Positions 8,566 to 62,267 of a stretch of 64,000 bases of DNA are shown here, piece after piece. Each line of letters begins with the position of its first letter. Position 1 is the stretch's first letter. This DNA comes from an uncultured Candidatus Melainabacteria bacterium (GTDB lineage: Bacteria; Cyanobacteriota; Vampirovibrionia; Gastranaerophilales; Gastranaerophilaceae), in the NCBI GenBank assembly GCA_949841365.1, contig CATKZI010000005.1:1-64000 (forward strand). The letters are read 5' to 3'. The notes under the pieces are model-generated. The model had not been told where the DNA came from. It was given only the letters and a program-made list of their open reading frames with translations, and did not search any database. The position numbers were made by a program, and so were the translations under genes.

Positions 8566-9416
8566 CAATAGATGTAGGCGGAACTAAGATTTATTCCGCG
8601 ATAATAAACGAAAAAGGCGAAATAATTTCAGAAATCGAAAAACATCACACGCCAAAAACTTTTGCAGAAATAAAATCGCTTTTTGAAGATATAATCAAAC
8701 GCCACGAGGATAAAGTTGAGATAATTGCTTTTGCAACCTGCGGAGCAGTAAACAATACTAATGACGGGATTTTAGGTTCGACAGGAAATATCGCAAAAGA
8801 ATATCCTTCAATGGATTTTAAAGCTTTGAGTAAAAAACCTGTCTTTGTAGAAAACGATGCCAATGCAGCAGCCTGGGCAGAACACATTATCGGCGCATCA
8901 AAGGGAATGCCGTATTCTATAATGCTTACACTCGGAACAGGGGTCGGCGGCGGAATTATCTTAAACAATAAGCTTTATAAAGGCAAAAACGGAGCAGCAG
9001 GCGAAATGCATTTTAAAATGCGTACGGACAAACACAGAAAATGTACCTGCGGGTCATGGGACTGCTTTGAAATCTATGCATCAGGTACAGGATTAAAGAA
9101 AACAGCAGAAGAAATTTCGGGCAATCCTGATATTACAACTTATGATGTTATTGAAAAAAATGACCGCAAAATTCTCGACAGATGGCAGGACGATATTTTA
9201 GCGGGAATTATCGGACTTTCAAATATTTTTGACCCTGATGTCATTGTACTATCAGGTTCAATGGCAGAGTTTGTTGATATTGATTATCTTGAAAAACAGG
9301 CAAACAAAGAAATTGTTACAACACCTTTCAAAGTTGCAAAAGCTACTGCGGGCAATTATTCTGGAATGATTGGCGCGGCACTTTTAGCTCTGGATTATTC
9401 AAAAAGCCAACTGTGA
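8550..9416 (+). CDS. nanK: ROK-family kinase, probable N-acetylmannosamine kinase
   Basis: This sugar kinase of 288 residues would phosphorylate ManNAc for the adjacent epimerase. It has the N-terminal phosphate loop AIDVGGTK, the ROK signature region GTGVGGGIILNN, the catalytic segment ENDANAAAWAE, and the zinc-binding HRKCTCGSWDCFE. AGAGG inside nanE serves as its ribosome binding site. The NanK assignment rests on coupling to nanE. A glucokinase-like specificity is the alternative. Its 3' end overlaps the convergent pilin-like gene by 22 bases. Confidence 0.87.
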   Translation: MRKALAIDVGGTKIYSAIINEKGEIISEIEKHHTPKTFAEIKSLFEDIIKRHEDKVEIIAFATCGAVNNTNDGILGSTGNIAKEYPSMDFKALSKKPVFVENDANAAAWAEHIIGASKGMPYSIMLTLGTGVGGGIILNNKLYKGKNGAAGEMHFKMRTDKHRKCTCGSWDCFEIYASGTGLKKTAEEISGNPDITTYDVIEKNDRKILDRWQDDILAGIIGLSNIFDPDVIVLSGSMAEFVDIDYLEKQANKEIVTTPFKVAKATAGNYSGMIGAALLALDYSKSQL

Positions 9417-10062
9417 TAATAACAGGGCGGTTTATTGCAATATGCATTTTGATTTGTAACATCTGAATTCCAACCAGGCATAATTTTTGCTGGCATTCCC
9501 GATTGTAGCATACTACCTTTTTCATCTGCAAATACAAAAGTAAACCTGTCTTTTCCAAAGATATTCGGACCTTTCGAGCCGTTAATGTCTACAAAATAAA
9601 TACTTGAACCGGTGACTTTTTGAACCCACACCCTGCCCGAAGCATCAATAAATGCGCGACTTGAACTGTTTGTAGGGTATCCTGTCCATGTATTGTTTCG
9701 ATTATCAACCCAGCATATATTTAACATGCTGCGAGGATCATTACACTCTTTTACAACTTTGAAACGCGATTTTATAGCATTCCATGCAATTTCAGCGGCA
9801 ACATAATCAAACGTATTACTTTCTTGTGCTATAATGTCATTATTATTAAGAGCATCCTCAAATACTTGTGAAAAATCCGAATAAGACTTTTTATAACCTA
9901 CCTTAAATTGCTTATCATTTATTTTATTAATCAAAGACGAAATTGTAAGTGCTGCAACAACACCAATAATACCAAGAGTAATTAAAACCTCTGCTAAGGT
10001 GAAGGCTAAGCGCGGTTCAGTGCCCCCCCCCCGAAAAACCGATTAATAATTGAGTATTCCAT
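9395..10062 (-). CDS. Pilin-like protein, out of frame at a G10 tract (candidate phase-variable, OFF)
   Basis: The ATG at 10062 follows AAAGGCTGG and opens a frame that runs into ten consecutive G (minus strand) and then hits TAG. The prepilin motif (AFTLAEVLITLGIIG) begins a few codons later in a different frame that is closed by TAA upstream and has no start codon. One extra G would join the two frames. The body carries the family motif VDINGSKGPN-x2-GKD-x-F and ends with a cysteine-rich tail. A good promoter precedes it. The gene is therefore silent as assembled, either a true phase-OFF state or a homopolymer sequencing error. An internal TTG at 9934 is not a credible start because it would omit the signal. 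Confidence 0.75.
10023..10032 (-). repeat. Homopolymeric G10 tract in a prepilin leader
   Basis: Ten C on the plus strand (G on the coding strand) lie between the start codon and the prepilin motif of the gene at 9395-10062. Gain of one G, or loss of two, restores the frame. Poly-G/C tracts of this length are classical slipped-strand mutators in AT-rich genomes. Confidence 0.85.
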
Positions 10063-61344: not shown

Positions 61345-61384
61345 TTGACAAAATATTAAAAATCTTAAATAATAAAATTGGAGG
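61345..61384 (+). promoter_or_regulatory. Promoter and ribosome binding site of the C-tract pilin gene
   Basis: TTGACA (61345-61350), a 17-base spacer, AATAAT (61368-61373) and GGAGG (61380-61384) lie before the ATG at 61393. The block matches that of the intact pilin gene at 19287 almost base for base. Confidence 0.75.
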
Positions 61385-61392
61385 TATTTATT

Positions 61393-62267
61393 ATGAAAAA
61401 GCTTGGAATTGCCCCCCCCCCGAAAAGCCGAGCAGAGGCACGAATGTAAGTGAGAGACGAACAAGCATAAGCGGAAACCGCGTTTTTCGATTTGCTTGTG
61501 AGCGGTGCCATTTATCGCGAGGCGGAGTCTTAGCATTCACACTTGCAGAAGTTTTAATAACTTTAGGAATTATAGGTGTTGTTGCTTCAATAACTTTACC
61601 CGCATTAATTAACAACTTCAAAAATCAACAATATGTAAATCAATTAAAAAAATCATATTCGGAGATTGGCAATACTTTCAAATTTATGATGGCAAAAGAA
61701 GAAGTTGAAAGTTTAGATGAAACTGAATTTTTCAGAAATTTTCCGGGTGAGACTCAAAATTCATCAAGAGTTCCCGAATACTTAGACACTGCTCTGGGAC
61801 AATATTTTAATGTTGTAAAAAACTGTCATAAACACGACACAACTTGCAATTCAATTAAATATAAAAGCTTACACAATGCCCCTCTTACAAACGACCTTAA
61901 CGATTACAATTTCTACACAGCAGGCGGACAAATTATTTACATGGGTGAATTCAGACGTTCCAGACTGCCCGATCAATATAATAAAGATGCTCAACTGGCA
62001 GGCTGTCCTGCTATAATAGGAGTTATCAACATTGACGTAAACGGCGAAAAAGGTCCCAATAAATATGGCAGAGATTACTTTTCATATCGATTGTGCGTTA
62101 ACGGAAAGCTTCTTGCAGAAGGCAGTAAAGAACTAGCAATGACAGCAGGTGACAATTATACCGGCTACTGGTGGAAAACAAGTTATTCCTGCAGTGGAAA
62201 TAATAAAGGTATAGGCCACGGCTGTGCCGGACGTGTTATGGAAAATGGCTGGAAGATGGATTATTAA
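61393..62267 (+). CDS. Pilin-like protein, out of frame at a C10 tract (candidate phase-variable, OFF)
   Basis: The ATG at 61393 opens MKKLGIAPPP and runs through ten C into a TAA about 10 codons later. The prepilin motif (AFTLAEVLITLGIIG, from 61533) is in another frame that has no start codon. Eleven C would join them and give a long leader of about 46 residues, including a 37-codon insert that has no stop in that frame. The body ends with the family motif IDVNGEKGPN-x2-GRD-x-F and a Cys-rich tail. The promoter and GGAGG are intact. An ATG at 61686 lies far inside the mature domain and is not a credible start. Confidence 0.75.
61412..61421 (+). repeat. Homopolymeric C10 tract in a prepilin leader
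   Basis: Ten C lie at codons 7-10 of the gene at 61393. Gain of one, or loss of two, puts the start codon in frame with the prepilin motif 40 codons later. Confidence 0.85.
61437..61509. repeat. Nested imperfect palindrome inserted in the prepilin leader
   Basis: Three inverted pairs are nested: GGCAC (61437-61441) / GTGCC (61505-61509), ACAAGCA (61461-61467) / TGCTTGT (61493-61499), and GCGG / CCGC (61471-61481). The segment lies between the C tract and the FTLAE motif and has no stop codon in the pilin frame. The intact paralogue at 19287 lacks it, so it is probably an inserted small repeat element. Confidence 0.5.

Follow-up and report, generated by a model that had tools for sequence, protein, structure and literature searches.

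The window, by which we mean the whole 64,000-nucleotide stretch of DNA analysed, contains two C10 tracts, and each lies close to the start codon of a gene for a type IV pilin-like protein (Table 1). Runs of this kind are not expected in a sequence of this length: C9 should match 0.03 times by chance, and four overlapping matches are present, representing the two tracts. The first interrupts a plus-strand pilin gene, and the second appears as a G run on the coding strand of a minus-strand pilin gene that is also one base short as assembled.

Table 1. Positions of the features discussed in the window
Feature	Position	Strand	Remarks
Sigma-70-like promoter, TTGACA-17-AATAAT	61345..61373	+	consensus match alone, 11/12
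Ribosome-binding site GGAGG, 8 nt 5' of ATG	61380..61384	+	sequence
Window pilin ATG (61393) and assembled frame (10 C)	61393..61449	+	MKKLGIAPPPKSRAEARM-stop; sequence
C10 tract, proposed switch of the window pilin	61412..61421	+	flanks ATTG-C10-GAAA, fitting the genome-wide ANYG-C10-GA
Leader module of the window pilin	61422..61533	+	~105-nt repeat, dispersed and in part palindromic; no stop in the pilin frame
Type IV pilin-like body	61536..62267	+	243 aa, counted from the F that follows the predicted cleavage site; stop codon 62265-62267
Second C10 tract	10023..10032	+	G10 on the coding strand of the minus-strand pilin
Pilin with the second tract as proposed switch	9395..10062	-	ATG 10062-10060, MEYSIINRFF-G10-..., body 10003-9398; OFF at 10, ON at 11

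Direct reading of the window pilin gene bears out the features described in the initial annotation, namely the GGAGG, the ATG, the C10 tract and a prepilin motif, AFTLAEVLITLGIIGVV, whose F codon starts at 61536, 143 nucleotides from the ATG (143 mod 3 = 2) and so one base out of frame. As assembled, the ATG frame is closed after 18 codons by the TAA at 61447-61449. The claim that a single added C makes a complete prepilin is likewise correct, as at 11 C the frame is open through a 48-codon leader and 243 further codons to the stop at 62265-62267. The body joins the ATG frame only at tract lengths of 2 mod 3, so that 10 is OFF and 11 (or 8) is ON. Promoter-like sites were found five times in the window by consensus matching against 3.1 expected, and such a match is weak evidence taken alone.

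The window protein scores 17.0 bits against the NCBIfam prepilin model TIGR02532 (cut-off 16.3) and thus carries the prepilin cleavage/N-methylation motif; the Pfam N_methyl model gives 14 bits, under its cut-off of 21.2, and no Pfam family covering the protein was found. In the structure model (pLDDT 81.5) a helix spanning residues 3-54 is followed by beta strands forming a sheet, and a Foldseek search with this model places pilins among the first matches, but with E values of about 1 and without significance. Most other tract-bearing pilins in alignment A1 are 27-39% identical to the window pilin, which implies that switching between them would strongly alter the exposed surface. The diverged members of this alignment share the motif DVNGxKGPNxxGRDxF (window residues 167-180), two conserved cysteines and a C-terminal Y.

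Between the tract and the prepilin motif lies a leader module, which prepilin peptidase should remove along with the leader. The repeat that forms this module in the window gene (61422-61533; also L030, L031, L032, L034 and L276) is 77-90% identical in other pilin leaders and is found outside pilin genes in L032 and L034; we take it to resemble in-frame palindromic elements such as those of Rickettsia. In the orthologue pairs L100/L234, L074/L219, L102/L266 and L081/L206, the segment from tract to prepilin motif is entirely different, with flanks that are 77-90% identical, as if leader modules had been exchanged between orthologous pilin loci.

Distribution, strand and flank of the tracts

The genome to which the window belongs (G000, 1.69 Mb) contains 49 C tracts of at least nine, comprising 42 of length 10, four of 11, and one each of 9, 12 and 13. 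In a 184-kb sample of this genome, C runs of 4, 5 and 6 occur 216, 17 and 1 times, runs of 7 and 8 are absent, and runs appear again at 9-10; a run of exactly eight C is found once in the genome. This gap at 7-8 indicates that the C10 tracts form a separate class rather than the tail of ordinary runs, and both the window and the 184-kb counts place them far beyond chance length, as is expected of contingency loci. The pattern G-C10-GA gives 998 matches in 26 genomes of the genus, 25 of them positive, as against 31 when the pattern is reversed. Other genera of the family have it sporadically, and none of the 22 sampled genomes from other families contains it. Three members of the genus (G012, G023 and G045) had no match to the tract patterns used, and in the search for other strains viral contigs gave no result.

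The tracts share both a flank and an orientation. The base before the C tract is G in 48 of the 49 cases, and the flank ANYG-C10-GA is common to C-type pilins, G-type pilins and other genes, which argues that it belongs to the DNA itself rather than to any one coding frame. Neighbouring tracts carry their C on the same strand in 38 of 39 pairs in G000 and in 41 of 42 pairs in the second species examined (G046), and this is so with C on the coding strand of 17 G000 pilins and G on that of 22. The strand of the C tract predicts GC skew when coding direction is allowed for (coefficient -0.059, t = -9.0; 31 stretches from three genomes). If the usual skew holds, with a G-rich leading strand, the C run would lie on the lagging strand and the G run on the leading strand whatever the direction of the gene. 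The gene dnaA, considered as a marker of the point at which the strand switches, is located elsewhere.

Leading-strand G runs have been described in Pseudomonas and Salmonella as GnT hotspots, at which G takes the place of a T lying 3' of the run, in that orientation only (PMC12344412). Read as G runs on the leading strand, the tracts here have C as the 3' base in 48 of 49 cases and T in none; the lack of T fits such hotspots. That work concerns substitutions at short runs rather than switches, and the 5' context of the tracts here (C) is not its hottest; an origin of GnT type, which fits on the 3' side and not in the 5' context, is a lead rather than a demonstration. Insertion of the tract by a mobile element was also considered and set aside, as no clean empty site was found in homologues of the tract-bearing DUF2142 gene or in tract-free relatives of the glycosyltransferase fusion described below.

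Several tracts deserve separate mention. L085 (C2:217680) is the sole tract of its genome with a T before it; it lies outside any long open reading frame and adjoins a G6 run with which it could pair as a hairpin, and it may be a promoter-spacing or terminator feature. Three of the 49 tracts lie within ~220 bases of a contig end (C1 start, C4 start and C3 end), above chance, and repeats or mixtures of lengths may break the assembly at such positions. Two contigs of G021 that begin at one tract have 87 bases in common and then diverge, which indicates that they are not alleles.

Reading frame and selection in the pilin repertoire

The tracts are concentrated in pilin genes. There are 63 N_methyl matches in G000, and 39 of its 49 tracts are positioned between an ATG with a ribosome-binding site and the prepilin motif of 39 different pilins. 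Thirty-five of these 39 are in frame only at 2 mod 3 (that is, at 11), and as assembled 34 are OFF and 5 ON. G046 has 50 tract pilins with lengths of 9-12, of which 38 need 11 and 41 are OFF and 9 ON; in both genomes start codons were chosen by a simple ribosome-binding-site score, and individual ON/OFF calls may be wrong. Of 20 additional pilins examined in the genus, 19 need 11, with 16 at length 10 and two at 11. In the 39 and 50 pilins of the two genomes the tract is thus placed such that a change in its length joins or breaks an intact frame. The initial annotation had proposed one switched pilin in the window; the switch reading is supported, but its scale was understated, since some 40 pilins carry the device, and the second tract in the window went unmentioned.

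C runs and G runs alike show the need for 11, across three codon phases or more, and this suggests that selection has acted on the default state rather than that one frame was inherited. A single inherited cassette is an unlikely source of the common frame, as two codon phases are found among the C-type genes and a further one among the G-type genes, mostly still requiring 11. From the tract to the prepilin motif, 1,238 codons in 89 pilins contain no stop in the pilin frame, and 99 and 98 stops in the other two frames. An internal start 3' of the tract was rejected, as an in-frame ATG is present there in only 2 of the 89 pilins and none of ATG, GTG and TTG occurs in frame in this segment of the window gene.

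Open reading frames that are OFF as assembled are nevertheless under purifying selection. Across ten orthologue pairs, of which nine are OFF in both genomes, dN/dS is 0.11-0.33, and selection of this kind implies that genes OFF in the sequenced clone are expressed often enough for selection to see them. The window gene and its own orthologue, at 90% identity, give a dN/dS of 0.15, which contradicts the fixed and decaying OFF allele raised as a counter-reading in the initial annotation. Together with the genome-wide family, the dN/dS values rule out an isolated frameshift or pseudogene.

Departures from the common design were also observed. Some tract pilins have shortened bodies (e.g. 50 aa in L215). 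In L124 (C5:19320) the tract is interrupted and read through in frame, locking the gene ON and indicating that a longer leader is tolerated, and in L126 (C6:121198) the interrupted tract C4TC5 is fixed at 10 and out of frame, locking it OFF. L117 and L129, on contig C1, are tract-free pilins in which the prepilin start FTLAE occurs twice in tandem (e.g. MTKRFGFTLAEGATHVAMPNSKLNFGFTLAEVLIT) with a leader module between the two copies.

Seven tract genes of G000 encode proteins other than pilins: a glycosyltransferase-2/TupA-like fusion, another glycosyltransferase-like protein, a DUF2142 membrane protein, an Acyl_transf_3 protein, a hexapeptide-repeat protein that scores under the Pfam cut-off, a protein whose C-terminal part we read as resembling an outer-membrane barrel (with no Pfam match), and a product without an assigned identity. 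All seven are in frame at 10, and six are ON. The tract-bearing glycan and surface genes belong to classes that are often phase variable. Tracts outside recognised pilins in G046 are more mixed than in G000.

Proposed phase variation and alternative readings

Taken together, these sequence data make slipped-strand phase variation the highly probable explanation, acting on a large pilin repertoire that is OFF by default; this would be a familiar type of switch with an uncommon architecture. The ON/OFF translational switch proposed for the window gene is thus the best-supported reading, in view of purifying selection, a leader open only in the pilin frame, tract lengths of 9-13 that are unequal in some orthologue pairs, and the presence of the tract in glycan and surface genes as well. 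Replication slippage in a C10/G10 tract just 3' of the start codon would shift the reading frame, and about 40 pilins would carry this same device, nearly all of them OFF at the commonest length of 10 and ON with one base more, so that few pilins would be expressed per clone. The non-pilin tract genes, mostly with surface-glycan functions, would be set the opposite way, ON at 10. Slippage is presumed to occur within the population; a pilin would be expressed only when ON and assembled into pili, and the purpose may be surface diversity.

Seventeen orthologous tract pairs could be matched on both sides, in a comparison of species and not strains; of these, 12 are equal in length and 5 differ, with some ON/OFF calls uncertain because of the choice of start; the same locus thus differs in length between related genomes, at the species level, as contingency loci do. 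A further pair, matched on one side only, has 10 (OFF) vs 11 (ON). In the orthologue of the window gene the tract reads T-C11, and that gene too is OFF; the base before the C run differs, G being present in one and C in the other. Two counts speak against the switch: 42 of the 49 tracts have length 10, and only 5 of the 39 pilins are ON in the assembled clone. The more mixed non-pilin tracts of G046, and the dependence of ON/OFF calls on the scored choice of start, also weigh against it. Tracts are kept at 10 between species ~20% apart in DNA, and this conservation, with the concentration at 10, also fits a stable tract.

The main rival is programmed recoding, under which the DNA would remain C10, and RNA polymerase slippage (+1 nucleotide) or -1 ribosomal frameshifting would give a steady low level of every pilin; the one offset shared by nearly all pilins and the concentration at 10 would fit such a fixed decoding rule. 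Homopolymer slippage is known in bacteria (PMC5009743, PMC1088944). We nevertheless consider recoding improbable. A programmed frameshift or slippage gene is expected to have one fixed tract length in all genomes and loci, and lengths here range from 9 to 13 and are unequal at some orthologous loci; the same tract is in frame at 10 in glycan genes, where recoding would serve no such purpose. C and G runs also act alike here, although slippage in RNA and on the ribosome would be expected to differ between them.

Two other readings are both very unlikely. The first is an artefact of sequencing or assembly, in which the gene, with a true tract of 11 C, would be constitutively intact and one base would have been dropped by assemblers. 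Homopolymers are error prone, and a systematic undercount would produce a common one-base offset. A length of 10 is, however, called in many genomes of the genus, with 9, 11, 12 and 13 called too, and with a uniform undercount the non-pilin tract genes, which are in frame at 10, would have the opposite states, making a sequencing error an unlikely cause of the common pilin offset; the assembly error over a stable 11 C that the initial annotation had considered is unlikely for the same reasons. The second is antigenic variation of pilins by recombination, with tracts marking sites of leader or pilin-body exchange and the OFF genes forming a silent library. Leader modules that differ between orthologues with ~90% identical flanks, the many paralogues, and G-rich tracts in one replication orientation, recalling the guanine-rich site upstream of Neisseria pilE, would suit this reading. 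Against it, every copy has its own ATG and ribosome-binding site and nearly always a full-length open reading frame under purifying selection, only the pilin frame of the leader is free of stops, a property for which silent cassettes would have no use, and the tract also occurs in unrelated glycan genes.

Within slipped-strand phase variation, we tentatively propose a more specific arrangement, in which the strand-locked cassette ANYG-C10-GA, on the lagging strand, might be made and held at 10 by a genus-specific process linked to replication (either a dedicated factor or a balance between hotspot extension and contraction) and might serve as a standard switch, OFF by one base in a pilin repertoire of 40-50 members and ON in glycan genes; each cell would then bear a small set of pili of its own.

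Comparison with known switch systems

Type IV pili are known in the broader group to which this lineage belongs (PMC5877343). Our literature search, which covered mainly work outside subscription journals, found no report joining Gastranaerophilales or the broader group with phase variation. To our knowledge, the lineage is so far known only from metagenomes. A strand-locked tract with one common length and flank offers a natural system for the study of how homopolymer tracts arise and stay at one length, and in automatic annotation of the genus about 40 pilins per genome may be labelled as broken or be given wrong starts.

In Neisseria, pilE is one expressed locus fed from silent fragments, with guanine-rich DNA near the pilin start and a dependence on replication orientation. 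The tract pilins resemble it in type IV pilin diversity, in G-rich DNA by the pilin start and in replication orientation, and differ in that many complete genes are present, each with its own switch. The opa family of Neisseria gonorrhoeae comprises about 11 genes with CTCTT repeats in the coding sequence of the leader peptide (PMC3745409). The tract pilins would resemble opa as a family of surface-protein genes, each with its own leader repeat and each switched independently through the reading frame; in contrast to opa, the repeat here is a C10/G10 run, the products are pilins, the members number ~40-50, nearly all are OFF by one base, and the tracts keep to one replication strand. The reports on phase-variable G/C homopolymer genes in Campylobacter and Helicobacter describe runs in coding sequences, glycan and surface targets, and many loci in a small genome (PMC8355987, PMC2823697), all of which are found here. 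By comparison, one pilin family dominates here, most tracts have length 10, and genes of both directions share the flank and the replication strand. If the switching proposed here is true, the lineage would be a further heavy user of tract switches alongside Neisseria, Campylobacter and Helicobacter, with the switches concentrated in its case in one default-OFF pilin family.
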